Assembly (NCBI RefSeq): GCF_000300515.1
Contig: NZ_AMSI01000007.1
Span: forward strand, 1 to 64,000
Origin: Nitratireductor indicus C115
GTDB lineage: Bacteria > Pseudomonadota > Alphaproteobacteria > Rhizobiales > Rhizobiaceae
Length of the DNA: 64,000 bases
Direction of reading: 5' to 3'
Both the position numbers and the translations under genes were made by a program. Below are positions 12,349-53,646 of the stretch, one piece after another (within the stretch, counting starts at the first letter, position 1; each line of letters opens with the position of its first letter). The notes under the pieces are model-generated. The model made no database searches. It saw only the letters and a list, made by a program, of their open reading frames with translations, and was not told where the DNA came from.

Positions 12349-12851
12349 GACCGAGCCCCCTCCTCGCCCGACGGAGCAAGAATTGTCATGGCCGCCTCAG
12401 CCAAAGCCTGCAGAAACAGCATGGCGAAGGAAAAGGGCACTATGAACTTCAGCCACCAGATCGGCGGGTTCCAGGCCGAAAAGCTCGTTTCGCCGAGCGC
12501 ATAGGCATTCACCGCCAGTGGCCAGCTCACCACGGCGAAGACACCCGCAAAGACAGCGATCACGAGACAGGCGAAAACATCGAGCGCGCGACGGGTCGGC
12601 CCCTGCGCCTTCTCGCTGAAGATATCCACGGCCACATGGCCGCGCAGATGCAGAAGATAGGGACCGGCAAGCAGGAAATGCGGCCCGAAGACAAGCGTGC
12701 TTGCTTCCATCGCCCACACGGTTGGCGCATCGAAGGCATAGCGGGCGACCACTTCATAAAGAAGCATCGGCACGACCGCGAAGATGATCGCGGCAGCAAG
12801 AATGAACAGAAGCCGGTTGATCCCGGTGATTGTGGCGCAGACTGCTTGCAT
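12345..12851 (-). CDS. TRAP transporter small permease (DctQ-type)
   Basis: About 168 residues with four hydrophobic segments, the usual size and topology of a DctQ subunit, including the WAMEASTLVFGPHFLLAGPY region. I place the start at the ATG at 12851 because the hydrophobic first helix follows directly; a GTG at 12872 would add seven residues. It pairs with DctM (4-bp overlap) and with the binding protein encoded upstream. Confidence 0.85.
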   Translation of the reverse strand: MQAVCATITGINRLLFILAAAIIFAVVPMLLYEVVARYAFDAPTVWAMEASTLVFGPHFLLAGPYLLHLRGHVAVDIFSEKAQGPTRRALDVFACLVIAVFAGVFAVVSWPLAVNAYALGETSFSAWNPPIWWLKFIVPFSFAMLFLQALAEAAMTILAPSGEEGARS

Positions 12852-12892
12852 GAAACTGCCATCTGGCCGCACGGCGCGGCCTGGAGAAAGGA

Positions 12893-12914
12893 CGGGCGGC
12901 GCAGACGCCGCCCG
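12893..12914 (-). other. intercistronic hairpin between TRAP binding-protein and permease genes
   Basis: Perfect 9-bp inverted repeat (CGGGCGGCG and CGCCGCCCG) with a four-base loop in the 75-bp gap after the binding-protein stop. No long T-run follows on the minus strand, so it looks more like a 3'-end mRNA stabiliser or partial attenuator, allowing more binding protein than permease, than like a full terminator. Confidence 0.55.
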
Positions 12915-12926
12915 ATGAATATTCAG

Positions 12927-13958
12927 CTAGATGAGGCCAAGCGACTGCATGAACGCGACCTGGCTGTCGACGATCTTGGTTGCCAGCGGGTCGCCCTTGG
13001 TCGCCTTCTTCCAGGATTCGACCGCCTTGCCACGAGCCGCCGAGATGTCGGCTGGATCGAGCTGGAGCACCTCGACACCCTTCTCGCGATACTTGTCCAG
13101 AATCTCGGTATTCTGCACGATGATGCGCTGGCGCAACGAACCGGAAATCTCCCGCGCCGCCACTGCGAGCGCCGCCTTGAAACTGTCCGGCAGCGCGCCA
13201 AAGGCAGCGGTGTTGGCCACATAGCTCGTGGCCGTCGTCGGCTGATGCACGCCTGGCAGAATGATGAACTTTGCCACTTCTGCAAGACCCGCCTCGTAGT
13301 TGGCGGTCAGGTCGCCACGGTCAGCAAAGTCGATCAGGCCTTTTTCGAGGCCGGAATAAACCTCCGCCGTCGCCATTGGCGTGACGGCCACGCCGAGATC
13401 GCCCATCACCGCCGAAGCAAGCCCCACGAAACGGCCCTTCTTGCCAGCCATGTCGGCGATGCTCTCGATCTTGACGGTCGAATGCATCGGCTCTTCGCCA
13501 TAAACCGTCGGCGCGATATAGGTCAGGCCTGCCTTGGCATAGGCTTCTCGCGCCATATCGAGCCCGCCGAGTTCGTAGAACCACGCCTCATACTGATCGG
13601 GGTCCGGAAAGCCGAAGGGAATGGTCGATGTGAAGGCGAAAGATGGAATCTTGCCTGCCTCATACCCGTCGAAGGTCTTCATCATCTGGAATGCGCCGCT
13701 GCGGACTGCATCGAAGGCCTGCGCCGCCGGCACGAGCTGTCCCGCCGAGAAGAGCTTGATATCGAATTTGCCATCGGTCAGTTCGGCAACGCGGGCCACG
13801 AAGTTCTTTTCAAACTCGTATGGGGTGGTGCCCCCGTCCCAGAGCGCCTGCATGCGCCAGGACACTGTTTCCTGCGCGCGGGCCACGGCAGGCATCGCCA
13901 ATGCTACGCCTCCCAACGCCGAAGCAGTCAGAATCCGGCGTCGTCTCAAATCAGTCAT
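12927..13958 (-). CDS. TRAP transporter solute-binding protein (DctP-type)
   Basis: A 343-residue periplasmic binding protein. The N-terminus has a twin-arginine-like signal (LRRRRILTASALGG...) with a probable AxA-type cleavage after AVARA, near residue 25. The mature part reads as a DctP protein, with the conserved region ending in ATAEVYSGLEKGLIDFAD. I chose the ATG at 13958 because GGGAGGAAG lies directly upstream; 13 more codons are open but lack a ribosome site. It is the first gene of the TRAP-mvaA-mvaB operon. The operon context suggests mevalonate as ligand. Confidence 0.9.
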   Translation of the reverse strand: MTDLRRRRILTASALGGVALAMPAVARAQETVSWRMQALWDGGTTPYEFEKNFVARVAELTDGKFDIKLFSAGQLVPAAQAFDAVRSGAFQMMKTFDGYEAGKIPSFAFTSTIPFGFPDPDQYEAWFYELGGLDMAREAYAKAGLTYIAPTVYGEEPMHSTVKIESIADMAGKKGRFVGLASAVMGDLGVAVTPMATAEVYSGLEKGLIDFADRGDLTANYEAGLAEVAKFIILPGVHQPTTATSYVANTAAFGALPDSFKAALAVAAREISGSLRQRIIVQNTEILDKYREKGVEVLQLDPADISAARGKAVESWKKATKGDPLATKIVDSQVAFMQSLGLI

Positions 13959-42932: not shown

Positions 42933-44045
42933 TCACCGTCGCACCACTTCACCGTCCTCATGCACGATGCGCAGGCGATCGCTGAAATCGAGAATATAGG
43001 AGAACTCGGCCGTCCCGCTTGTCTCCTTCCCGCGCTCGGGGCTTGAGACATAATAATCGTAGGTCCCGATCACGGCGCAAATGGCCTTCTGACACTTTGC
43101 ATGCAGGGACTCCTCGTGGACATTGAATTCGCGTCTGCTCCACCGCGAAAAATACGCTCTCTTGTCCTCAAGAATCTCGTCCTTCGAGACCTTCCGCTTA
43201 AAATACTCCACCTGGTCCGCGTAGAATTCGCGGGTGAACTCCATAGCCTTGTCTGCGGAGGCGCTACCTGCCTGAATGATCAGCACAGCAGCATTCACGG
43301 CCCGCTGCTCATCCGTCACCCGCTGCGGCTGCGCGGCAGCCGGCTGTTGCGGCGCGGGCGGAGCCGCCCGTACCTGACGCTCCGGAGGATTGGTCGGGGA
43401 AGGCGCGGGAGCGGGGGCCGGCACCGGTTCGGCACGCGCAACATAAGCCTGCCCTGTCCGGTTGATCCCGTATTTGGTAATCTCGTGCGGAGAAAAGAAA
43501 TACATATCGTCCGGTGGGGTTCGGAACATGATGCCCAGAACATCGGCAGCAACCCCATATTTGGGAAGGGTCGCAACGATATCGGAAACGCCGAACTGCG
43601 CCTGCGAGCCGTTCATCTCGGGCGCGGAAATCTGATGCACGCCCAGACGCCCTTCGGCGATGCGGTTCTTGCCCGCAAAAAACACGAAGGAGCAAGCGGA
43701 CGCACAGAAACTGTCCTTTGGAATATAGGTGTCGAGCCCTCGCTCATAGATTTCCTCGGCGATCACCAGGCCGATATGGACCAGACCTCCGGGATTGTCC
43801 TTGAGAATAAGGGTCGTAATGGTTGGGTGTTCCCGAAGCGCTTTCTTGAGATTGAGCAGGTCATTGGCGCCGACCTGCCCGCTATAGATCAGCATCTGCG
43901 GTTGTTCGTAAATGAAGAAGAATGGCCCGTACTTGTCGAAGCCGTTGGTATTGGCCCGCCCGTCAAGCGGTGCCGCAAGCAGCGCGAGAAGCAGGAGTCC
44001 CGACGAAAACAGCCGTTTCTTCGCGAACTTAAAAAAACCTGACAA
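42933..44045 (-). CDS. exported ClpP/crotonase-like serine-protease-fold protein (COG3904-like)
   Basis: About 370 residues. After a basic start (KFAKKRLFSSG) comes a signal-peptide-like core (LLLLALLAAPLDGRA). The next 150 residues resemble the periplasmic ClpP-like family: a G-x-V-G/A-x-D stretch (YSGQVGANDLLNL), ILKDNPGGLVHIGLVIAEEI, and CASACSFVFFAG, where the second serine-bearing motif lies. A proline/alanine-rich linker (about 200-245) leads to an unrelated C-terminal domain rich in charged residues. The start is uncertain: no ATG is suitable, and I propose the TTG at 44045 preceded by GGTGG (GTG at 44048 or 44054 are alternatives). Last gene of the envelope cluster. Confidence 0.7.
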   Translation of the reverse strand: MSGFFKFAKKRLFSSGLLLLALLAAPLDGRANTNGFDKYGPFFFIYEQPQMLIYSGQVGANDLLNLKKALREHPTITTLILKDNPGGLVHIGLVIAEEIYERGLDTYIPKDSFCASACSFVFFAGKNRIAEGRLGVHQISAPEMNGSQAQFGVSDIVATLPKYGVAADVLGIMFRTPPDDMYFFSPHEITKYGINRTGQAYVARAEPVPAPAPAPSPTNPPERQVRAAPPAPQQPAAAQPQRVTDEQRAVNAAVLIIQAGSASADKAMEFTREFYADQVEYFKRKVSKDEILEDKRAYFSRWSRREFNVHEESLHAKCQKAICAVIGTYDYYVSSPERGKETSGTAEFSYILDFSDRLRIVHEDGEVVRR

Positions 44046-44224
44046 CACTACCACCCTGGGATTTTCAAAACGATCCTGCTGCGGAATGATCTGCTCCGGC
44101 AGCGTATCCTGAATTCGGCGGCGGCAGAGTATAATCCCGGCATCGCCGCAGCCGGGACGCGGAGCAGACTTCCAGCTTGAGGCAAACATGTTCGGTCGGC
44201 ACCGATCAATTGCGACGGATCGAC

Positions 44225-44251
44225 TAGTACACCAGCACTAGGAATAGTGCT
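44225..44251. promoter_or_regulatory. candidate response-regulator site (44.2 kb) with overlapping 7-bp palindrome
   Basis: On the minus strand 44225-44240 reads TAGTGC-TGGT-GTACTA, a 5-of-6 inverted repeat of the same type found before the response regulator gene. It overlaps a perfect palindrome AGCACTA-GGAA-TAGTGCT (44234-44251). The following minus-strand bases keep the TGT and GA-C positions of the two promoters at 49.7 and 51.2 kb. It would drive the ClpP-like gene. Confidence 0.5.
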
Positions 44252-44301
44252 TTTCCGGGTGCCCTTCAGGGAGCCCCGTATTGCCCCCTCCCCGCGACGC
44301 C

Positions 44302-44982
44302 TTATTCTTCGGGAGAACAGAAATCGGTGACATCCGTGGAAAGCGCCGGCCAATCCTGGACTTCGATACGCTGCTCCTTGCGGCCTGCTTTACGCACGCT
44401 GCGCAATTCGTCGCTTCCCTCAACCGGCACATCGTAGCTCAGCTCCCATTTTCCGGACAAAAGGTTCCAGTCGCACGAACTGCCAGCACCCGATATCCGG
44501 TCCCAGCTATTTCTGGTAAAGCCCGCGACAAGAATGGCCCCGTTGCGCGCCGCCACCGTCAGCGTTTCCTCCCAGGGAGAGCGGCCGATTGCCGTCTGCA
44601 TGGACTGGATCAACAAGCTGCCGTTGGATGCCCGTTCGAGATAGGGAGTTTGCCCTGACATCGGCCCGGAAAAGGCAATGCCGCGTACCGTAAACAGGAT
44701 TTTGCCCGCTCGCTTGTCGGGCACACCCGCCATGATCGCCAGATCCGCCGATGGTTCATCCGGATTCGCCCCCGTCATCAGCACAGCGCGTTCCGCACCA
44801 TTATATTCATCGAGCAGTTCTATCGAGACCGCCGAAAGAATGCGCGGCAGAACGGCTTTTTCTGCAGCTTCCGGCTCCGCCGTCAAACCCGGCTGGACCG
44901 GCCACAACATGGCTGCCAGAAACACGGCATTCATCACAGTGATCCCTTGCACATGGTGCAGTCGCGCAATTGGGTTTGACAT
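44302..44982 (-). CDS. putative exported protein of unknown function
   Basis: A 226-residue protein with a hydrophobic N-terminal segment (ITVMNAVFLAAMLWPVQPGLTA) that looks like a signal peptide cut near residue 35. I recognise no family. Two cysteines (GSSCDWN and TDFCSPEE at the very end) could form a disulfide in the periplasm. The ATG at 44982 has AAGGAG upstream; a GTG at 44994 would overlap that site. It is encoded 250 bp before the ClpP-like gene and 46 bp after the 323-residue protein, in the same direction. Confidence 0.7.
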   Translation of the reverse strand: MSNPIARLHHVQGITVMNAVFLAAMLWPVQPGLTAEPEAAEKAVLPRILSAVSIELLDEYNGAERAVLMTGANPDEPSADLAIMAGVPDKRAGKILFTVRGIAFSGPMSGQTPYLERASNGSLLIQSMQTAIGRSPWEETLTVAARNGAILVAGFTRNSWDRISGAGSSCDWNLLSGKWELSYDVPVEGSDELRSVRKAGRKEQRIEVQDWPALSTDVTDFCSPEE

Positions 44983-45028
44983 ATCGGTTCTCACTCCTTG
45001 AATTGAGAAAGCGCAGGGATCATGCCGT

Positions 45029-46000
45029 TCACGAGAAGATCGCCGTGCCCGCAGAAAGCCTCATGAATTTCTCTTCCACTTCACGCGGCAGGGAAATGTC
45101 CAGATCGCGCCATTGCGCTGCGCTCAGCGGCAGAAAGGCGACGGTGTCGCTATGCCCGCTTTCCCGGCACATGCGGATTTCATACCCGGGCGCCAGGACG
45201 GCATTGAGCGTTACGAGCGTCGTGTCGCGATCCGCATCCGCCCCCTTGTAGGGAACGCGCGTCCGCACACCGCAATGTACAATGAAGAGATCGGCCGAGG
45301 CTTCGTTCGGAACGAAATCGGCGCTGAGGTCGCCAGTGCGGATGAGCCGTTCGCACATATGCACGATGTCATCATCGGATTCCCGCCAATCCACCCACAT
45401 CACAACATCGTCGTGATGGTCACCCAGAACATCGAAGAGAAATCCCTGATCCCCCTCACGCAAATAATGGCGGATCAACTCCATCTTGTCGGAGCGGTCG
45501 ATCTCCAGCGCCGGTTTAGGCGGTATCGGCTCAAGGGAGTCCGGAAGACCGAGATGCTCATACCACAACAGAAACATGCGCTCGATCTGTGCAATCTGTT
45601 CCGGATGGCGCGTAACGGGACAAAGCCGGTATGCGGCTTCACCTTGCGTACCGAACCGATATTCCAACGCCCCGTCGACAAGTCCGAGAAACGCGAAAAC
45701 CGGATGGGCCGACCACTGGAGATGAGCAGGCACATCGACGATTTCATCGCGCCGATAAGCACCGTGCGCCCTGTTGAAGTCGATCTGTCGAGGTCGCGGC
45801 GAAAAGGTTATTCTTTCTGCCGGGCCAGGCGCCCCGCCCAATCTCGAAGCGCCCCGCCCGACGGTGTTGAAAAGGATCGCATAGTCGAAGACCTGCTGCA
45901 GCGTCTGCGGCGTCAGCCGCACATTGAAGCCGTCCTGCAGCGCCGCATCACCGGCACGGCGCCCCAGGAAAGCAAACAGCCGTTCAACGGGCGTCGGCAT
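45029..46000 (-). CDS. protein of unknown function in the envelope cluster
   Basis: A 323-residue protein without signal peptide or clear membrane segment, so probably cytoplasmic. It is rich in acidic and aromatic residues (for example GDHHDDVVMWVDWRESDDD). No family recognised. Its start overlaps the end of the Sel1-repeat gene by 17 bp, which argues for co-translation and for a functional link to that protein. Confidence 0.75.
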   Translation of the reverse strand: MPTPVERLFAFLGRRAGDAALQDGFNVRLTPQTLQQVFDYAILFNTVGRGASRLGGAPGPAERITFSPRPRQIDFNRAHGAYRRDEIVDVPAHLQWSAHPVFAFLGLVDGALEYRFGTQGEAAYRLCPVTRHPEQIAQIERMFLLWYEHLGLPDSLEPIPPKPALEIDRSDKMELIRHYLREGDQGFLFDVLGDHHDDVVMWVDWRESDDDIVHMCERLIRTGDLSADFVPNEASADLFIVHCGVRTRVPYKGADADRDTTLVTLNAVLAPGYEIRMCRESGHSDTVAFLPLSAAQWRDLDISLPREVEEKFMRLSAGTAIFS

Positions 46001-47786
46001 TCTTTTGCTTCATCTCCGCGAGCTCGCGCAGCATCTTGTCCGCCGAAGTGTGACCAAGCGCATGCGCTTTGCGCAGCCATTCTTCCGCTTTGCCTAGATC
46101 CTCTTCGACGCCGATACCGTTGGCATAAAGAATGCCGAGATTGAGCGCCCCCTGCTTATCGTCCTGCGCAGCCGCCTTGCTCTGCCACTCGAACGCCTGT
46201 TTCTCGTCCTTCGGCACCCCATCGCCATGCTGATACATCACTCCGATGTGAACCTGCGCCGCGGACAGCCCTCGCTCCGCCGCCATAAGTATCCATTTGG
46301 CGGCCCGGACCGGATCTTTCTGCCCCGCACTGCCATATGCGAACAACTCACCGATCTTGTATTGCGCGTTGGCTTGCCCCTGCTCCGCAGCCTTGTGGAA
46401 CCACTCAATCGCCTTGACCTGATCCTGAACCCCGGCCGTCTTGCCATAAAGTATGGTGCCGAGGGCGAACTGGGCGTCGGCGTCGCCTGCCATTGCCGGC
46501 TCGAGAAGCAATGCGGCAATGCCCGCATCGCCATTCTTCCCGGCAATGATCAACAATTCGCGGGCGCGCTTCTCATCGCGTTTCACACCACGGCCTTCTC
46601 GATACATCATGGCAAGCTTGAAAGCCGCATACGGGTCCCAGCTCTCTGCTGCCTTGGCATACCATTCGGCGGCCAAAGCATCGTTCGAGGCAACGCCCAA
46701 CCCCTGCTCATAAACTGCACCGAGATTATAGGCGGCTCGCACGCTTCCCGCCTCAGCAGCCATCGTGTACCACTTGACGGCCTGCTCCGCGTCGCGGGCA
46801 ACCCCGCGCCCCTCCTGATACATCGAGCCGAGAGCCGCCCCTGCCCCACGGAGAAGCATCAGTGAGTCCGGATCATTTGTATCCTTCGGCGTATTTTCAA
46901 CCAGCGCCATGTACCAGAGCGCTGCCTGTTCGAAATCCTGCTTCACGATCTCGCCGCGATAAAAATAATCGCCGAGATAGGCCTGCGCTGTAGGATTGCC
47001 CTCTTCAGCTTCCTTGAGAATCGGATCGCCTTCGAACGGTCGAGAGGCGTTCTCTGAAGTTCCAGGCTCGACAAAACGTCGACGATAGGCAGAAGCAAGC
47101 ACCGGCAGAACGTCCCGCTGTTTCAGGATCGCTTCCGGCACCTTCTTCATCGCAGACAGGCTGTTCTTTGTGCCGCAGGGCATCGGGCCCCACTTCTCAA
47201 GAAGTTTCTGCGCCCGCGCATCGATTTCCGACCGAACTTCCGCTTCGAGAAAGTCAGGAAGCTGCATCGTGTCTTCATCGATCCGCAGCGTTCCGCCATG
47301 GCATGCATCGGCATAATCCTTGTGGCTCGCAAAGCGCGCCAGCAGCAAACCATAATCCTCGATCAACCTTTCACGGACTTTCGCTTCATCGTTCTGATGA
47401 GCGAAAAGCCGCATATTGTGCTGCAAGACGAGGTCGGGACCATTGTATTCGGGTTCCTCAGGCATCGGGTAGCCGACTACCTGGCGCACATGATCGCGCG
47501 TCACGAGTTCAACAGACCACGCGATCTGAAAAACCGATACGGCCAGTGCGATGCCCGCCAACAGCAAGCGGACCAGGAGCCCACCTTCTCGCAGAGCACG
47601 AAACGCGATCACCGCGCCCGCAATTCCCAGTACAAGACCGGCAATATTGAAATTGGACTGGCGGACAAGCTCACCATCCACGGTCAAGCTGTTACCGGTT
47701 CCGAAAAATATCCAGAATGGCGCCACACCCAAAACGAGGGCAAGCAACGGCGCCCGCAATGCAGGCCAGTAATCGGCAGGCTTCAT
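45984..47786 (-). CDS. membrane protein with about eight Sel1-like repeats
   Basis: A 600-residue protein. Three hydrophobic segments lie in the first 95 residues (for example LLALVLGVAPFWIFFG and LVRLLLAGIALAVSVFQIAW). Residues from about 265 to 590 form about eight Sel1-like repeats of 35-37 residues with the typical A-x-x-x-L-G-x-x-Y-x-x-G-x-G-V pattern (ALGSMYQEGRGVARD, NLGAVYEQGLGVASND, HIGVMYQHGDGVPKD, NLGILYANGIGVEED). Sel1 solenoids bind other proteins and often act in envelope stress, secretion or signalling. It lies 35 bp after the 402-residue exported protein gene. Confidence 0.88.
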   Translation of the reverse strand: MKPADYWPALRAPLLALVLGVAPFWIFFGTGNSLTVDGELVRQSNFNIAGLVLGIAGAVIAFRALREGGLLVRLLLAGIALAVSVFQIAWSVELVTRDHVRQVVGYPMPEEPEYNGPDLVLQHNMRLFAHQNDEAKVRERLIEDYGLLLARFASHKDYADACHGGTLRIDEDTMQLPDFLEAEVRSEIDARAQKLLEKWGPMPCGTKNSLSAMKKVPEAILKQRDVLPVLASAYRRRFVEPGTSENASRPFEGDPILKEAEEGNPTAQAYLGDYFYRGEIVKQDFEQAALWYMALVENTPKDTNDPDSLMLLRGAGAALGSMYQEGRGVARDAEQAVKWYTMAAEAGSVRAAYNLGAVYEQGLGVASNDALAAEWYAKAAESWDPYAAFKLAMMYREGRGVKRDEKRARELLIIAGKNGDAGIAALLLEPAMAGDADAQFALGTILYGKTAGVQDQVKAIEWFHKAAEQGQANAQYKIGELFAYGSAGQKDPVRAAKWILMAAERGLSAAQVHIGVMYQHGDGVPKDEKQAFEWQSKAAAQDDKQGALNLGILYANGIGVEEDLGKAEEWLRKAHALGHTSADKMLRELAEMKQKNADAR

Positions 47787-47821
47787 GGGAACTCCAGGTT
47801 CTTTTCAGGTCGCGTTGCAGC

Positions 47822-49030
47822 TTAGAACTGTATCGCCCGGACATTGGCCGGCGGTTCGCTCAGCCACCATTCCGGCGCGGAAGATTGGCGGATCGGGCAG
47901 CGCAGCAGCGAACTGTCCTGCAGCGAAATCTCGCGGGCGCTGGACACATTCAGCACGACGATATCGGCCTTGCCGGCAGCCCCGCCGCGCAGCGCTGCAT
48001 CTTCGTCCGGCGAACTGCCGCACCGGATCTGCAACGTGGTTTGAAACCCCTCAGGGTTGGGTGCATCTCCCGCAGCATCGATGACAGCGCAATAACGTTC
48101 GCCCAGCTGGACGGCCGGACGCGCCTTTCTCGACAGGTGAATGGATACCTGTTCATGCGCTGCGCCATTCGCTGCATCACAGCCGATTTTCCCGTTGGCA
48201 TAGATACCGTCGGCAAAGCTGCCGGCCTGTTCGAGATAAGAGCCGACAGGCGCTGCCTGCTCTATCGCCTGGTTGACCGAAAGCACCTCGCGGATCAGCT
48301 TTTGTCCGTCATCGCCATCGACCGAGACCAACGCCTCCACGAGGCAGATCTTCCCTTCCCCGCAGGTGTGCGTAACCAGCCTCTGAGCATCGCTGTCTGC
48401 AGGAATAAAGCAGGCTCCATCTCCAGTTATCGCTGAACCGGCCATACCAGAACCCGTGTTCAGGACCCCGAAGCACCATTCATATTGCGGCTCTCCGCGC
48501 AGCGTCGCCAGCGCAGGCAAAACCCGGTATTGCACCTCATCCTGAATATCTTCGTTTCCGGGGCAAGTGGACCTGCGGGTGAGGAAAATGTCCCCATCGG
48601 CATACCAGAAGGAACGGACGGACGATTGCGCATTGCCCCCCGTTTTCGCGCCGCCCTCGCCGAAACCCGAGAAACATGCGACCGCATCGCTTCCATCCCT
48701 TGAAACGAGCAGCCCCCAGCTCACGTCGCCCCCGCTCGCCGCTTCGAACGCGCGCATATAGAGGTAATCTCCGACCGCAATCACCGGAATGGATATGGCA
48801 TTGCCGCTACCCGTATCGGCCAGAAGCCTCTGCCTCAGATCGGGGTCGATAAGAGCACCGGCAACAGCGGATTTGACAGCCGGGTTATCGAGAAACGACA
48901 CACCTTCGACCTGATCCCAGGGATATCTGCCCGCATAGGCCTGAAGGTCTACGGTGTTTTGGGCGCTGCCGGGGCCGGCACCAACCATGAGGACGACCAA
49001 TGCGGTCGCTAGGGTCAACTGTCGTTTCAT
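47822..49030 (-). CDS. exported protein of unknown function
   Basis: A 402-residue protein with a standard signal peptide (KRQLTLATALVVLMVGAGPGSAQ, cut after residue 23) and about ten cysteines in the mature part, consistent with a disulfide-rich periplasmic protein. No family recognised. It follows the 170-residue-class membrane protein gene by 63 bp and precedes the Sel1-repeat gene by 35 bp, so it is in the middle of the cluster. The name of a substrate or partner cannot be read from sequence. Confidence 0.78.
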   Translation of the reverse strand: MKRQLTLATALVVLMVGAGPGSAQNTVDLQAYAGRYPWDQVEGVSFLDNPAVKSAVAGALIDPDLRQRLLADTGSGNAISIPVIAVGDYLYMRAFEAASGGDVSWGLLVSRDGSDAVACFSGFGEGGAKTGGNAQSSVRSFWYADGDIFLTRRSTCPGNEDIQDEVQYRVLPALATLRGEPQYEWCFGVLNTGSGMAGSAITGDGACFIPADSDAQRLVTHTCGEGKICLVEALVSVDGDDGQKLIREVLSVNQAIEQAAPVGSYLEQAGSFADGIYANGKIGCDAANGAAHEQVSIHLSRKARPAVQLGERYCAVIDAAGDAPNPEGFQTTLQIRCGSSPDEDAALRGGAAGKADIVVLNVSSAREISLQDSSLLRCPIRQSSAPEWWLSEPPANVRAIQF

Positions 49031-49093
49031 CGAAGTTTTCCTAATCGAATTCGAGATCTGGGTGTTCCCGAAGCGGCCACCATCAGGCAGAGC

Positions 49094-49570
49094 TCACGGT
49101 TGGGCCTTGCGCCCGCTGCGCAGGAAGAGAATGCCGACGACATAGAGAATCAGGCCGCTCCCGACAAAGGGCATTGCCATGGCGATCACCCAGAACCAGA
49201 AAGCCGTCGCCGCATCATTTTTGGCGCGCGTATCCGCCTCCACAAGATCCTGCAGCGAAAGACCTGAGAAGAGGGCTGTGGAGAGCACGTTGAGCAGCAG
49301 TATCGTACCGAGAACGATGCATCCCCACCCAATCAAGCGCTTGATGTTTTCGATCCGTGCTAGAAATACGGCGATGACGATGGCCAGCAGGAGCTGCACG
49401 ATGACGGCCAGAACCAACATGCCCTGATACCCACCCGGCATGTCCGCAGTCCACTGGGGATCCTCACCCATAAGCGGCAGTACAAAGGGGCCGACAATTC
49501 CAAAGCCCAGACGTCCGGACAGGATGCCGAAGACAACGCTGATCGGCCATCTGATCCACACAGAATTCAT
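49094..49570 (-). CDS. small membrane protein of unknown function
   Basis: A 158-residue protein with about four hydrophobic segments (one around ISVVFGILSGRLGFGIVGPF, one LVLAVIVQLLLAIVIAVFLA, one GWGCIVLGTILLLNVLS and one FVGSGLILYVVGILFL). No family recognised. I prefer the ATG at 49570, preceded by AGGGACGG, over one at 49606 without ribosome site; this also puts the regulatory repeat at 49684-49699 at the same distance as in the homologous promoter at 51.2 kb. Confidence 0.72.
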   Translation of the reverse strand: MNSVWIRWPISVVFGILSGRLGFGIVGPFVLPLMGEDPQWTADMPGGYQGMLVLAVIVQLLLAIVIAVFLARIENIKRLIGWGCIVLGTILLLNVLSTALFSGLSLQDLVEADTRAKNDAATAFWFWVIAMAMPFVGSGLILYVVGILFLRSGRKAQP

Positions 49571-49683
49571 ACACACCGTCCCTGCCAGCCGAGTAAAACG
49601 TTCCATGAAACAGCGGACGGCCGAGGCTGCTGCTTCCGAACATAAGCGCTGCAGATAGTATTTGCGGGGACCCGCCGCTCCAA

Positions 49684-49699
49684 TACGACAGATGCACTA
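49684..49699 (-). promoter_or_regulatory. candidate response-regulator site (49.7 kb)
   Basis: On the minus strand this reads TAGTGC-ATCT-GTCGTA. The 15 bases at 49687-49701 match 51212-51226 at 13 positions, and similarity continues for about 40 bp on the minus-strand downstream side, ending in a TACTAT -10-like box near 49659. The site is about 115 bp before the start at 49570. Confidence 0.6.
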
Positions 49700-49771
49700 G
49701 GCGACACCCGTTATCCTCAAGAAAAAGGGACAAAAAGCCGTGGCAGGCGCACCCTGAGAAACGCCGAGAAC

Positions 49772-50734
49772 TTACTGAACGACGAGTTCAACCCGGCGAT
49801 TGCGCCCACGACCAGCCTCGTCCTCATTGCTTGAGACCGGGGCAAGAGACGCCACGCCCCGTGGCGACAAACGCGCCTGATCGATACCGTAGGCTGTGGC
49901 GAGCCGTTCCGCGACGGCTGCAGCCCTTGCTTCCGAAAGAGCCATATTGGCAGCCAGCGCTCCGACATTGTCGGTGTGCCCGACGACATAAACCTTCAAC
50001 GCCGGTTCGGCCTGGAGCAGTTGCGCCATCTGGCCGAGCGCGTCGTCGGACTCCGGACGAAGCTCAGCTTTTCCGGTATCGAAATAGACGCCTGAAACCG
50101 TCACATGCCCCTGCCGATCGAGGGATTGCTTGAGTTCGCCGGCCTTCAGCACCTTCACCTGATCCGTGGCAAGTGCCGCCGTCTCCACCACCTGCTGATA
50201 GAGCACAGTCCGTTTCGTTGACGTGTCTTCAACCGCATGGAGGAAAATGTGCACCGAGCCATTGGGATCCTCGCGTTGCGCCAGCAGCGCACGCTCAGCG
50301 GTCTCGCCGAAAAAAGCGTCGCCAAAGGCGGTCGGACGCACGCGGCCTGCATTGGCGATAAACGCCATCATGTCAATGCCGCACTCCTCATGACTTTCAC
50401 AGGCAAAAACGGTCTCGAAACCGGCTTGTGTAAGGGCCGCCTCATAATTGCGCATCACCTCCAGAACCGAATGATCCCCCGGAATGCGATAGCCGATGCG
50501 CGTCACCTTGCCCTCGAGCTCGAGGAGGTTTTCAGGCGCATCTCCATTGTCGATCCGGCCGGCAGGCAGAATTGCCTCATCGAAATCCTTCACCTGATAG
50601 GCTCTGATCGTCGCCGATGGAAAACGGCCGAAAAGCGGATGATCGGAAGAGCCCTCCACATCTTCCGCAAAAGCCGTGCCGCTCGCCAACATGCTGCACG
50701 CAAGTGCAATGCGAATAAGCTGTTTCCAATTCAT
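49772..50734 (-). CDS. exported OmpA-family protein with N-terminal DUF4892-like domain
   Basis: A 320-residue protein with a signal peptide (LIRIALACSMLASGTAFA, cut near residue 23). The N-terminal 200 residues (DHPLFGRFPSATIRAYQ..., then a cysteine pair in FACESHEEC) look like the DUF4892 domain often found before OmpA domains. The C-terminal OmpA domain (about 215-320) has GVYFDTGKAELRP, VVGHTDNVG with the peptidoglycan-binding aspartate, LSEARAAAVAE and GRNRRVELV with the binding arginine. It should anchor to peptidoglycan in the periplasm. Second gene of the cluster counted from the response-regulator side, 64 bp after the small membrane protein gene. Confidence 0.88.
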   Translation of the reverse strand: MNWKQLIRIALACSMLASGTAFAEDVEGSSDHPLFGRFPSATIRAYQVKDFDEAILPAGRIDNGDAPENLLELEGKVTRIGYRIPGDHSVLEVMRNYEAALTQAGFETVFACESHEECGIDMMAFIANAGRVRPTAFGDAFFGETAERALLAQREDPNGSVHIFLHAVEDTSTKRTVLYQQVVETAALATDQVKVLKAGELKQSLDRQGHVTVSGVYFDTGKAELRPESDDALGQMAQLLQAEPALKVYVVGHTDNVGALAANMALSEARAAAVAERLATAYGIDQARLSPRGVASLAPVSSNEDEAGRGRNRRVELVVQ

Positions 50735-50798
50735 GCTGCTTTCCTCGTCACGTCTCGCAGTTCCGCCCGGTCGGTGAAGACCAGGCCATTCCGGCTCT

Positions 50799-51092
50799 TC
50801 ACGCCTGCCGTCTCAGGGTTCTGCGCCGCAGACCGTGCCCGCCAAGCGCGCCGACCGCGAGCAGGCTGAACACAGGCAGGGCGAGGTACATCAGATAGAC
50901 GACCACGGTGAACATCGGGCCGTCCCGCGCATCCACATTTTCGAAATACATCCAGACAGCACCGAGAAGCAGAATGCCTGTCAGCACCGCAACGCATTTG
51001 ATGGCTCTGCGCGCAGGCATGAGCCTGCCGATCATGAGGCCCGCCACCACGGGAATGCCGATAAAAAGGACGCCGGTTACCCACCAGATCAT
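50799..51092 (-). CDS. small membrane protein of unknown function, first gene of the envelope cluster
   Basis: A 97-residue protein with three hydrophobic segments (VTGVLFIGIPVVAGLMIG, AVLTGILLLGAVWMYF and VVYLMYLALPVFSLLAVGAL) and a basic C-terminal tail (RRRTLRRQA). No family recognised. AAGGAAAATC precedes the ATG. It is divergent from the response regulator gene, with two copies of the regulatory repeat between them. Confidence 0.72.
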   Translation of the reverse strand: MIWWVTGVLFIGIPVVAGLMIGRLMPARRAIKCVAVLTGILLLGAVWMYFENVDARDGPMFTVVVYLMYLALPVFSLLAVGALGGHGLRRRTLRRQA

Positions 51093-51208
51093 CGCGATTT
51101 TCCTTATCCGGCATTCATCGGGCTTTCCCCTGAGCGATAAACATCGCGCAAGGTTACGGGCGTGTAGTTGTAGAAAAGGCTTATCGTTGAAGCGATACGG
51201 CGGTCCAG

Positions 51209-51224
51209 TCGGACAAATGCACTA
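51209..51224 (-). promoter_or_regulatory. candidate response-regulator site (51.2 kb, cluster side)
   Basis: On the minus strand this reads TAGTGC-ATTT-GTCCGA, about 117 bp before the start of the first cluster gene (51092). It is the close relative of the site at 49684-49699; both are followed on the minus strand by a TGGA-CG-CG-TC core that could contain the -35 region, with a -10-like box (GATAAG) 17 bp later. Confidence 0.6.
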
Positions 51225-51261
51225 AGGTTGAGCCCGATTTCTCGAAAAATACACTCTTCAC

Positions 51262-51277
51262 TAGTGCATTCGCACTA
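51262..51277. promoter_or_regulatory. candidate response-regulator site (51.3 kb, regulator side), perfect palindrome
   Basis: TAGTGC-ATTC-GCACTA is a perfect 6-4-6 inverted repeat 22-37 bp before the upstream ATG at 51299, or 73-88 bp before the likely TTG start at 51350. Position suggests autoregulation of the response regulator. Confidence 0.6.
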
Positions 51278-51349
51278 TATGGCTCCCTATAGCTTGCGAT
51301 GCTATGGAACGACCATCATCCTGATAGTACTCACAATAGGTGCCTCGAA

Positions 51350-51976
51350 TTGCGCCAGGACCGCATCATCATAGCAGACGATCACCCGGTATTTCGGGAC
51401 GGTCTGGCGCGTCTGATCCAGCGTCATGAGCCCGAGGCAGTCATTGAGCAGGCGGCGACGGTGGATGAAGCTCTTTCCCTTGCCGGGAACGGATCGACAC
51501 CGAGCACCTTCATTCTCGATCTGCTCTTTTCGGCGGGGAGCCTTGAGGCACACCTTCCCGAATTGCGCCGGCGCTTCAGCCGCGCGTCCATCATCGTCGT
51601 GTCGATGATCGACGACCCGGACGTCGCGCGCCGTATCATGGGCGCGGGAGCCGATGGCTTCATCTGCAAGAGCCTGCCGCCGCACGAAATCGTCGCGGCG
51701 GTCGCTGCCGTACGCAACGGCGATGCGGTTCTCCAGCTGGAAGCGTCCGGCCTGCCTGTAAGCGAAGCGGACGAATCGCTTGCCGGCCTCACGCTTCGTC
51801 AGGTCGATGTGCTGCGTCTGCTCTCTCGCGGACTGAGCAATAAGGAGATCGGGCTGGAACTCGATATCTCCCCGTTCACCGTGCGGGTCCATGTCTCGGC
51901 GGTGCTCAAGGCCCTCGGCGTTACCACCCGTGCCGGCGCGGCCGCCAAGGCGACAGCCTGCGGCCTGGGTCATTGA
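51350..51976 (+). CDS. LuxR/NarL-type response regulator
   Basis: A 208-residue response regulator. With the TTG at 51350 (AGGTGCC upstream) it starts LRQDRIIIADDHPVFRDGL and the phosphorylated aspartate falls at D57, the normal position; an ATG at 51299 would add 17 unlikely residues. The receiver domain runs to about 120 with the conserved lysine in FICKSLPP, and the C-terminal helix-turn-helix (about 140-200; LTLRQVDVLRLLSRGLSNKEIG) is of LuxR type. It is divergent from the envelope cluster and convergent with the hybrid kinase gene, its likely partner; the last 7 bp overlap. Confidence 0.9.
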   Translation: MRQDRIIIADDHPVFRDGLARLIQRHEPEAVIEQAATVDEALSLAGNGSTPSTFILDLLFSAGSLEAHLPELRRRFSRASIIVVSMIDDPDVARRIMGAGADGFICKSLPPHEIVAAVAAVRNGDAVLQLEASGLPVSEADESLAGLTLRQVDVLRLLSRGLSNKEIGLELDISPFTVRVHVSAVLKALGVTTRAGAAAKATACGLGH

Positions 51977-53646
51977 TGCGCCGCAACCGCCTTTGTGGTA
52001 AGGACGGAACGTAACTCCGCCGGCCTGACGGGCTTTGCCAATATCGGTACGGAATCGTCTCCCAGATCCCTTTGCACCCGCGTTTCGTCATGACCGGTCA
52101 CGATGATCGCCGGAATTTGACGTCCAACCAGTTCGCGAACCGCCATGATGCAATCGGCCCCCGTTTTTCGACCGCCCAAATCGTAGTCGGTGATCATCAC
52201 ATCCCACTCCGAGGCAATTTTGGGAATGCCTGTTTCGACCTGAACCTGGCACCCCCACTTGCGCAGCAACAGGGCTGTTGCAAGCAGGACGTCCTCATCA
52301 TCCTCCACCAGAAGCACATGAAGCCCAGCGATTGCCGAAGGCGCGCTGGTTGCCGCAGGCACGATAGGCCGAACCGCTTCCCGGCATGGTTCCAGACCGG
52401 AGATGACAACTGAGGTCCCGCTTCCCGGCACCGAACGAAGCTCAACGTCCAGTCCCATCAACCCGCCGACCCGCCGGACAATCGACAGGCCGAGACCGAC
52501 CCCTTCGATGTCACGGTCACCACGTTCGCGCACCTGGTAGAATTCATCGAACAACTGATCGAGATGCTCTTCCGCGATACCCGGCCCCCGGTCGTGTATC
52601 TCGATGGAAACCGTTCCCTTTCGCCTGCGACAACCGATCAGGATGGGCGCATCGGGCGCGTATTTGAGCGCATTGCTGACGATATTCTGCAGCATGGTCG
52701 AAAGCAGCGCCGGGTCCGTGCGTACAACGAGATTGCACGGAACCGCGCGCAGTTCGACATCAGCCCATTGCGCCATCTCGGAATATTGGTGCACCACATC
52801 ACCGATCACGTTTCCAACGCGCACCGGCGCAAGCTTCGGCTCCACTTTGCCGCTATCCAGTGTCGCGATGTCGAGAAGCGAGCGGAACAATCCAGCCACG
52901 CTTTGCAGCGAACGATCGATATTCTCGACCATCTGGCGTTCCTCCCGCCCGAGGCCCGCATCGCGCAGGCAGGCCGTGAACAGGCTGATCGCATGGATGG
53001 GTTGGCGCAGGTCGTGGCTCGCCTGCGCGAGGAAATTGGACTTGGCAAGGCTCGCCTCGCGCGCTTCGTCCAATGCCCCACGCAGGGCGCGCTGAAGGCT
53101 GTCGATATAGCCCGGAACGATCAGTGTGGTCAGCACCAGGGTAATAACCACATACGGTTCGGCCCGCCACTGCGCATTGAACATTGTGGAAATGGCAATC
53201 GCAGCAAGCGCCATACCGGTCGCCGCCAGCAGATAGCGTGACCCGAAACGCATTCCATTGCCGACCGTCACCCACAGCAGGGTGGCGTAGATCGGCAGCA
53301 TGCCCATGCCGCCCGCCGCCATGGCCAGTGTCATTGCACCGTAATCGCCGCACATCGCGAACATGCGGCGCCAGACGAAATGTCCGGGCCGGCGCACGAT
53401 GTGCCAGAACAACAGGAACGAAATGGGGATATATGCAAGAACTGCGGAAACGGCCAGCCAATCACCCAATGTGTTGAGCCCGTCGAACGCCAGCACGGAA
53501 ACGATGTAGACACCGAACAACGGCACGATGATCAGCCGGACAATCGCCTGACCCCGTTCGGCATCTACACGTCTGCCCGTGATCCCCAGCCGCTCTGCAA
53601 TCCAGGGGCGCTGCCCGGGCAAAACTGCGGCTTCGGCATTCGACAT
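51970..53646 (-). CDS. hybrid sensor histidine kinase
   Basis: A 558-residue membrane kinase. Residues about 35-180 contain six hydrophobic segments and no large periplasmic loop, so it may sense within or near the membrane. The H box is SHDLRQPIHAISLF with H211; the ATPase part has NIVSNALKYAP (N box), DRGPGIAEE and GVGLGLSIVRR. The C-terminal receiver (about 442-550) has E448/D449, D487 (MITDYDLGG) and K538 (ILAKPV). The H-box type is common among kinases that pair with LuxR-type regulators. AGGGGAGAAACGG precedes the ATG. It may phosphorylate the neighbouring regulator, with the receiver tuning the flow. Confidence 0.92.
   Translation of the reverse strand: MSNAEAAVLPGQRPWIAERLGITGRRVDAERGQAIVRLIIVPLFGVYIVSVLAFDGLNTLGDWLAVSAVLAYIPISFLLFWHIVRRPGHFVWRRMFAMCGDYGAMTLAMAAGGMGMLPIYATLLWVTVGNGMRFGSRYLLAATGMALAAIAISTMFNAQWRAEPYVVITLVLTTLIVPGYIDSLQRALRGALDEAREASLAKSNFLAQASHDLRQPIHAISLFTACLRDAGLGREERQMVENIDRSLQSVAGLFRSLLDIATLDSGKVEPKLAPVRVGNVIGDVVHQYSEMAQWADVELRAVPCNLVVRTDPALLSTMLQNIVSNALKYAPDAPILIGCRRRKGTVSIEIHDRGPGIAEEHLDQLFDEFYQVRERGDRDIEGVGLGLSIVRRVGGLMGLDVELRSVPGSGTSVVISGLEPCREAVRPIVPAATSAPSAIAGLHVLLVEDDEDVLLATALLLRKWGCQVQVETGIPKIASEWDVMITDYDLGGRKTGADCIMAVRELVGRQIPAIIVTGHDETRVQRDLGDDSVPILAKPVRPAELRSVLTTKAVAAHQ

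Follow-up and report, generated by a model that had tools for sequence, protein, structure and literature searches.

Organization of the locus

The DNA analysed here (the window, a stretch of 64,000 nucleotides from Nitratireductor indicus C115) contains a two-component gene pair and a divergently oriented series of genes, with four copies of a 16-base pair inverted repeat in the intergenic DNA. The features are as follows.

51970..53646, minus strand: hybrid histidine kinase homologous to PA1396; gene tail-to-tail with that of the regulator
51350..51976, plus strand: response regulator (receiver and GerE/LuxR helix-turn-helix), PA1397 homologue; frame open from 51299
51300..51305, plus strand: putative -10 TGCTAT, 22 bp past O1; TGCTAT likewise in L143 and L144
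51262..51277, plus strand: predicted operator O1, perfect palindrome TAGTGC-ATTC-GCACTA, before the regulator gene; autoregulation proposed
51209..51224, minus strand: predicted operator O2, TAGTGCATTTGTCCGA, before the genes for the 97-aa membrane protein and the DUF4892-OmpA protein
50799..51092, minus strand: predicted 97-aa membrane protein (by eye), first gene behind O2
49772..50734, minus strand: DUF4892 and OmpA-domain protein, probably exported
49684..49699, minus strand: predicted operator O3, TAGTGCATCTGTCGTA, before the 170-aa membrane protein gene
49655..49660, minus strand: putative -10 TACTAT, 17 bp from a TTGGAG hexamer that adjoins O3
49094..49606, minus strand: 170-aa protein, membrane by eye, first behind O3; no Pfam family
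47822..49030, minus strand: 402-aa protein without a family match and, by eye, with a signal-peptide-like start
45984..47786, minus strand: 600-aa Sel1-repeat protein
45029..46000, minus strand: 323-aa protein; no Pfam family
44302..44994, minus strand: 230-aa protein; no Pfam family
44225..44240, minus strand: candidate operator O4, TAGTGCTGGTGTACTA, before the 418-aa ORF
42933..44189, minus strand: 418-aa ORF; no Pfam match above cut-off

The regulator matches PF00072 and PF00196 above cut-off, and is therefore a NarL/FixJ (LuxR-type) response regulator; because the putative -10 overlaps the start of the longest open frame, translation probably begins at the TTG at 51350. Its neighbour is a hybrid kinase with a membrane input region, HisKA, HATPase and receiver domains; the N-terminus of this kinase matched no NCBIfam family, and three rows from PDB sequences, at E of about 0.9, were disregarded. 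The 97-aa membrane protein gave no Pfam match above cut-off, and a 127-aa ORF at 50731-51114 lies in a different frame from its gene. A literature search for DUF4892, OmpA and a response regulator in combination found no paper.

Definition and specificity of the repeat

An earlier note on this DNA had described four 16-mers sharing the consensus TAGTGC-N4-GYNNTA, and all four were found at the coordinates and on the strands that it reported. The consensus itself describes three of the four copies, but the copy at 51209-51224 ends in GTCCGA, with its second-last base off the pattern. Their intergenic placement is as claimed: the copies at 51209 and 51262 share the space that separates the divergent genes, and those at 49684 and 44225 occupy the largest gaps inside the gene series, which measure 165 bp and 112 bp, respectively, from the ORFs.

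A count of the exact pattern yielded four matches (from three sites, since the palindrome at 51262 scores on both strands) where 0.04 would be expected; none of 100 shuffles reached four. Across the entire genome (4,991,032 bases) the exact pattern gave five matches at four sites, corresponding to the three in the block and one at C2:313476-313491. Fifty sites genome-wide lie within two mismatches of the perfect palindrome, and the two with no more than one mismatch, 51262 and 44225, are both in the block. The repeats are real and specific, and their element can be written as a 7-2-7 inverted repeat of the approximate form TAGTRCA-NN-TGYACTA. A genome-wide model scan, a check of the kind proposed in the earlier note, gave four matches, each of them a predicted site: R1, a 47-nucleotide model, matched O1, O2, O3 and C2:313451 and nothing else at E<=10, all four matches having belonged to its training set. 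A 13.6-bit match to the motif lies within coding DNA at 45351.

Candidate operators and their promoters

The four sites differ in their promoter context and in their retention among three sister species. O1 is identical before the regulator gene of G008 (L143:3906) and is represented by TAGTACAATCGCACTA in G006 (L144:7652), and the spacer at O1 is 16 bp. O2, with a weak -10, is kept in G010 (L142:12647) and G008 (L143:3960), and is matched by the model at E 0.03. O3 is kept together with its promoter in G010 (L142:11512) and G008 (L143:5446), is matched at E 5.1e-4, and displays a layout, with TACTAT at a spacer of 17 also kept in both species, that fits a class II activator-dependent sigma-70 promoter.

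O4 is the weakest candidate of the four: it has a counterpart, TAGTCCTTCCGTACTA, at the equivalent place in G008 (L172:3146), and a third half-site, TAGTGC, absent from the earlier note, lies beside it on the plus strand at 44245-44250 (TAGTAC-ACCA-GCACTA-GGAA-TAGTGC), but it displays no -10 at the fixed distance, no recognisable promoter and no R1 match. Retention in relatives, which the earlier note had made a test of its proposal, holds for most sites in the three gene-bearing sister species, but not for all: a search for O1 in G010 found no counterpart (best score 1.8 bits), and no site precedes the relocated OmpA gene of G006 (best -3.1 bits).

Distribution in the genus and family

Among 11 genomes of the genus, all four that encode a regulator of at least 75% identity give R1 matches, and all four supplied training sites; six of the seven others have no R1 match at E<=0.3. 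The seventh, G007, which lacks a close regulator, carries a single good site (E 0.156). In G004, which bears a 48% homologue, R1 has no match. Across 247 genomes of the family, R1 matches were found in five, all within the 18 that bear the regulator; three of these five supplied training sites, and the two that did not, G231 and G272, carry an R1 match at most 2.5 kb from the regulator. At E<=0.05, R1 found no match in 13 of the 18 regulator-bearing genomes, and none in the other 229 genomes of the family, in which the regulator had no match. The OmpA site of A. vitis, itself part of the R1 training set, scores 12.8 bits only, and the DUF4892-OmpA loci L145, L146, L148, L153 and L154 contain no site that reaches 11 bits, the first three of them deriving from genomes that lack a close regulator.

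The site at C2:313476-313491, found by the pattern search and not listed in the earlier note, lies outside the block and precedes an autotransporter gene followed by one for IalB. The RR-HK-OmpA genes of sister species G006 are adjoined by genes for an autotransporter (82%) and IalB, with an identical 16-mer, and in Phyllobacterium T1293 the divergent neighbours of the regulator encode an autotransporter (53%) and IalB. The proposal that the repeats mark a private regulon of the LuxR/NarL-type regulator is supported by the comparative tests, with the exceptions given above. The predicted regulon extends past the block to which it had been assigned.

Association with orthologous regulators

A matrix trained on 12 sites, drawn from the genus of the window only, was applied to orthologous regulator loci outside that genus, with a site called at 11 bits or more upstream of the regulator or at 13 bits or more within 3 kb (the regional test). 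Sites were present at 48 of 73 orthologous loci (L046 and L185 being one locus counted twice, which leaves the odds unaffected), as compared with 2 of the 50 loci that encode other NarL-type regulators, and the latter figure rules out an association with NarL-type regulators at large. For the regional test Fisher's p is about 5e-13, a value to be read with the facts that this test was defined after the result for the divergent type had been seen and that closely related rows in the comparison are not independent. The remaining 25 loci, including both from Sphingopyxis (L016 and L027) and L023, are siteless at these thresholds. In related bacteria, a similar motif precedes lipoprotein, autotransporter and peptide-export genes.

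Of 48 gene-oriented contexts, 15 (about one third only) have the sequence TAnnnT at a fixed spacer, 17 nucleotides past the hexamer that follows the site, with the orientation of the contexts partly picked after looking. Counting both orientations gives a total of 142, of which 17 show the sequence at spacer 17 and 13 at spacer 18; the other tabulated spacers have two or fewer, and the background is 0.29%. This fixed distance would place the centre of the site near -43, which is the position of a class II activator.

A 6.6-Mb P. aeruginosa genome has a single copy of the Pseudomonas form of the motif; this site precedes a lipoprotein gene adjacent to PA1396, and R1 did not match it at E<=1. 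A pattern written after the Pseudomonas sites had been seen, TAGYACNNNNGTRCTA, matches that site. Of 13 genomes or records, 8 contain matches to this pattern, 10 in total, and the other five have none; three of the ten (G285:C6, G281:C20 and G281:C29) are away from the known loci. In the divergent Pseudomonas type, a lipobox-bearing ORF lies behind the site in all 18 loci that have one, and the region before the regulator gene contains no site in 27 of 27 loci, which indicates that autoregulation is not general.

Proposed mechanism and competing explanations

The best reading of these observations is a private surface and secretion regulon, autoregulated in the window genome: the 16-bp element is very probably the operator of the regulator at 51350-51976, which would act as a class II activator of surface and secretion genes in response to a DSF-like input. 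From the computed sites, their conservation, their co-occurrence with the regulator and the enriched promoter spacing, we infer that the phosphorylated regulator would bind the element, two inverted heptamers in the 7-2-7 arrangement, as a dimer, and that the bound site, with its centre at about -43, would abut the -35 position and favour activation over repression. Polymerase would be recruited to the regulator's own gene from O1, and the OmpA operon would be activated from O2, the gene for the 170-aa protein and those following it from O3, possibly the 418-aa gene from O4, and the unlinked autotransporter-IalB operon from C2:313476. The partner PA1396-type hybrid kinase, through its RpfC-like membrane input, probably senses a DSF-like fatty acid as ligand.

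An improbable variant is that the regulator binds these sites and chiefly represses, by covering the -35 region; the end of the site at about -36, abutting the -35 hexamer, would allow this, and autoregulated genes are often repressed. Set against it are the centre near -43 and the promoters of O3 and its sister copies, where a poor -35 (TTGGAG) is combined with a good -10 (TACTAT or TATTAT) at a conserved spacing, the usual appearance of activator dependence. Less probable still is ownership of the sites by another, unlinked transcription factor, with the neighbouring regulator as a co-target. The regulator is itself a predicted target here, through O1, as a co-target would be, and its binding to the operators is a prediction; the sites nevertheless accompany it in Alpha-, Beta- and Gammaproteobacteria and seldom occur beside other NarL regulators. 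R1 gave no match at E<=0.05 in the family genomes without it, and an informal look noticed no gene, the partner kinase aside, common to the loci. Palindromes arisen by chance, terminators, or a repeat family that has no regulatory role, to which the site in G007 and the coding-DNA match at 45351 might point and of which O4 may yet be an instance, are rejected as a general explanation by the shuffles and whole-genome scans (with four model matches in the genome), and by the motif's presence at orthologous loci in other genera with an enriched promoter spacing.

Beyond the activation of surface genes proposed for the window genome, we lean slightly towards a broader reading, in which TAGTRCA-NN-TGYACTA would be an operator shared throughout the PA1396/PA1397 family in Alpha-, Beta- and Gammaproteobacteria, tying a fatty-acid signal from neighbouring cells to a surface and competition kit. 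If true, that kit would comprise autotransporter and IalB, OmpA proteins and small lipoproteins, with the addition, in several alphaproteobacteria, of double-glycine peptides and a peptidase-domain exporter. The lipoprotein gene beside PA1396 would be the first direct target named for PA1397 (the motif may already be published), and the sharpness of the predicted operator, matched exactly once in a P. aeruginosa genome of 6.6 Mb, reduces that matter to a single experiment. A readable regulon of surface, autotransporter and peptide-export genes would thereby be offered for many uncharacterised homologous systems, with unlinked members, such as the autotransporter here, discoverable by sequence.

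Relationship to known systems

The closest resemblance is to PA1396/PA1397. The kinase is 48% identical to PA1396 over 522 aa, alignable across input region, kinase core and receiver (62 of 175 positions in the N-terminal part), and the adjacent NarL-type partner is 51% identical to PA1397 over 200 aa. According to PMC6536496, PA1396 senses DSF fatty-acid signals and has an input domain resembling that of RpfC; a point against the ligand proposed here is that sensing survives the loss of much of the N-terminal region of PA1396, where E8 lies. Of 18 PA1396 residues named there, the P. aeruginosa kinase as fetched has all 18 and the window kinase 10; at the eight positions reported there to lower sensitivity when changed, the window kinase is identical at three (T121, P142 and L148) and has similar hydrophobic residues at five. 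PMC13086498 refers to DAP-seq work on 55 regulators, in passages that do not name PA1397. The two P. aeruginosa genes are divergent (on the divergence of PA1397, see PMC12051241), whereas the window pair is tail-to-tail. The matching, predicted operator of P. aeruginosa precedes the lipoprotein gene beside the kinase; in the window, by comparison, the regulator has a predicted operator of its own, and the neighbours with predicted operators encode surface or exported proteins.

The likeness to RpfC/RpfG of Xanthomonas consists of the alignment of the window kinase with PA1396 over the RpfC-like input. The partner of RpfC, RpfG, is an HD-GYP response regulator, whereas the partner here is a NarL-type DNA-binding regulator (receiver and GerE), which places the pair outside that class, and the domain search reported no Hpt domain in the window kinase. 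The resemblance of the input to that of RpfC is the one described for PA1396 in PMC6536496.

The predicted operator architecture, two inverted heptamers separated by a 2-bp gap and paired with a regulator of the NarL/FixJ family, is shared with the 7-2-7 operators of NarL and NarP. NarL recognizes that layout with the heptamer TACYYMT, in contrast to the TAGTRCA of the window.

The predicted regulon and its operators

The earlier claim of a regulon for the LuxR-type response regulator was supported and extended, with four additions: an assignment to the type of PA1396/PA1397 (a kinase/regulator pair of Pseudomonas aeruginosa), a fifth member, a geometry for the promoters and, in P. aeruginosa, a predicted target open to test. 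All four 16-mers previously described were found at their coordinates, and the pattern ascribed to them, TAGTGCN4GYNNTA, held for three copies and was one base off in the copy at 51209, which ends in GTCCGA.

Predicted operators and surrounding genes in the window
51262-51277 (+): O1, before the regulator gene
51209-51224 (-): O2, before genes for a 97-aa protein and a DUF4892-OmpA protein
49684-49699 (-): O3, before the gene for a 170-aa protein
44225-44240 (-): O4, before a 418-aa ORF
51350-51976 (+): regulator, with receiver and GerE domains (domain search)
51970-53646 (-): hybrid kinase (HisKA, HATPase, receiver), tail-to-tail partner of the regulator
Farther along than the OmpA gene: the 170-aa protein, a 402-aa protein, a Sel1-repeat protein and three proteins without a Pfam family

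The DNA has a GC content of about 61% and probably belongs to an alphaproteobacterium of Rhizobiaceae type, with plasmid matches mostly in Rhizobium and Sinorhizobium. The pattern gave four matches in the window (three sites, the palindrome being counted twice), against a mean of 0.04 in shuffled windows, of which 0/100 gave at least four. The whole genome (4,991,032 bases, 73 contigs) held one additional pattern site, at C2:313476-313491; 50 sites lay within two mismatches of the perfect palindrome, and those below two were 51262 (none) and 44225 (one). Positions 44225-44250 form three successive half-sites in 10-bp steps (TAGTAC-ACCA-GCACTA-GGAA-TAGTGC), an arrangement unlike the other sites. 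An operator-like match of 13.6 bits was also observed at 45351-45366, within a 323-aa coding sequence; it and an internal counterpart in the gene of sister species G008 probably reflect coding constraint.

The longest regulator ORF starts at ATG 51299. Because a putative -10 element (TGCTAT, 51300-51305) overlaps that start, and because alignments to the regulators of sister species G006 and G010 begin at residues 15 and 17 (that to G008 begins at residue 2), TTG 51350 appears the likelier start. A second PA1396-type kinase, 56% identical, was observed at a contig end (G000:C5:152-1750, locus L221); that genome has one close regulator, and two sensors may therefore feed one regulator.

Conservation in sister species and a fifth site

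A survey of 61 genomes placed the regulator in three other genus members at 76 to 88% identity, with their OmpA gene at 68 to 77%. The sites, whose loss in related genomes would have counted against the earlier claim, were largely kept: G008 has O1 identical in every letter and variants of O2 and O3, G010 has O2 and O3 with no O1 found, and G006 has a variant of O1 and no site in front of its OmpA gene, which is relocated behind the kinase. The G008 counterpart of O4, TAGTCCTTCCGTACTA, lies at the same position, with 11/12 arm bases kept and 3/4 spacer bases changed.

The site at C2:313476, TAGAACAGATGCACTA, lies upstream of an autotransporter gene (PF03797) followed by an IalB gene, the latter located using the G010 protein (72%). 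An 82% identical autotransporter and an IalB gene adjoin the regulator, kinase and OmpA genes in G006, with the same 16-mer (L144:16308), and in Phyllobacterium T1293 the regulator has as its divergent neighbours an autotransporter gene (53%) and IalB; thus an unlinked gene chosen by motif alone is regulator-linked elsewhere. The G010 pair occupies another locus, with the site TAGCACAGATGCACTA, and a second, similar kinase of PA1396 type was observed behind it.

Specificity of the site model

Model R1 spans 47 nt and was built from 24 sites, using sequence only. A whole-genome scan, the kind of check proposed earlier, gave four R1 matches at E<=10 and no others: O3 (5.1e-4), C2:313451 and O2 (0.03) and O1 (0.12). 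What counts in that scan is the absence of further matches, the four found being training sites; O4 gave no match at this threshold. Across 11 genus genomes at E<=0.3, R1 matched in the four with a regulator of at least 75% identity, all of them training sources (the G006 match is the autotransporter site), and once in G007 (E 0.156), which has no close regulator. A perfect palindrome in G007, TAGTGC-ATCT-GCACTA at C11:156465, reflects either chance or another regulator of PA1397 type. G004, with a 48% regulator homologue preceded by a matrix site, gave no R1 match at E<=0.3.

A family scan of 247 genomes (R1 E<=0.05 with stricter filters; regulator match E<=1e-35) gave R1 matches in five, all of which belong to the 18 genomes that match the regulator; the other 13 of these 18 gave none at E<=0.05. 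Three of the five had supplied training sites. In the other two, the sole match lies 77 bp upstream of the regulator, scored on the strand pointing away (G272, where TATAGA follows the palindrome at spacer 17 on the gene-facing side), or about 1.8 kb behind it (G231).

Orthologous loci in other genera

A matrix of 12 sites from the window's genus was applied to 73 loci taken as orthologous by a tblastn score of 130 bits or more, and to 50 control loci of other NarL-type regulators, leaving out the genus loci, one duplicate, and L081 and L102, which have short upstream regions.

Loci with matrix sites, orthologous vs control
Score of 11 bits or more, no farther than 300 bp upstream of the regulator: 23/73 vs 1/50
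Score of 13 bits or more, no farther than 3 kb away: 45/73 vs 1/50
Either: 48/73 (one positive doubled, L046 and L185 being the same locus) vs 2/50

The remaining 25 of the 73 had neither. Fifteen of the 73 came from the family scan, with an upstream site in seven, and the positive loci include Phyllobacterium, Rhizobium, Paracoccus, Methylobacterium, Nitratireductor, Labrys, Achromobacter and Pseudomonas. In A. vitis, a DUF4892-OmpA gene is preceded by a 12.8-bit site that starts 87 bp before it, and the stretch examined there contains no regulator; at five other OmpA loci the matrix found no site of 11 bits.

In L149 and L150 the genes adjoining the regulator include some annotated as HlyD proteins and as ABC transporters with a peptidase domain, and L147 has a C39-peptidase ABC transporter. 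Short ORFs with double-glycine leaders, recognized by eye, lie near these exporters (L147:17605-17835 and 12500-12814; L149:5735-5941 and 12740-12955; L150:7656-7850); several carry a candidate operator in front, and they are possibly bacteriocin-like peptides controlled by the regulator. Separate fragments, from a second regulator and from the receiver domain of a kinase, were observed at L147:13000-13648, adjoining the exporter gene.

Promoter geometry

In 48 gene-oriented contexts, with orientation partly the analyst's choice, TAnnnT stood 17 nt past the hexamer following the site in 15, and in at most two at every other tabulated offset. Without orientation, it occurred in 17/142 cases at spacer 17 and 13/142 at spacer 18, with at most two at other tabulated spacers and a background of 0.29%; all 13 spacer-18 cases are divergent Pseudomonas-type loci and seven of the 17 spacer-17 cases come from six tail-to-tail Pseudomonas loci, so these rows are not independent. 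Taking the -10 element to start at -12, the site centre falls by arithmetic near -43.

A predicted lipoprotein target and kinship with PA1396/PA1397

Among loci of divergent type, 18/27 carry a site scoring 13 bits or more no farther than 3 kb away. Of 18 divergent-type loci with such a site that were inspected, all 18 have a lipobox-bearing ORF (lipobox by pattern) behind it, at 122 to 125 bp in 17 loci and at 365 bp in the P. aeruginosa record. The 6.6-Mb P. aeruginosa PA7 genome, source of L043, contains TAGYACNNNNGTRCTA at one place, in front of a gene whose lipoprotein product shares 97% identity with that of the record and which adjoins an orthologue of PA1396 (92% across the 302 aa contained in L043); the R1 scan of PA7 did not detect this site at E<=1. 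The source genome of L003 has three pattern sites, one on a separate contig (L217), starting 142 bp before the match start of a gene 44% like the Pseudomonas lipoprotein. Such a motif is absent from the PA1397 literature examined, the key published datasets lying beyond that scope.

The window kinase is 48% identical over 522 aa to that of the P. aeruginosa record, and the regulators are 51% identical over 200 aa; the record's neighbouring genes agree with PA1396-PA1400. According to a published study (PMC6536496), PA1396 senses DSF through a five-helix RpfC-like input domain, keeps this ability despite loss of much of its N-terminal region, and was examined at 17 residues in or near helices IV-V and at E8. 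All 18 residues named there agree in the record's kinase, which supports its identity as PA1396, and 10/18 agree in the window kinase, for which we infer a fatty-acid (DSF-like) ligand.
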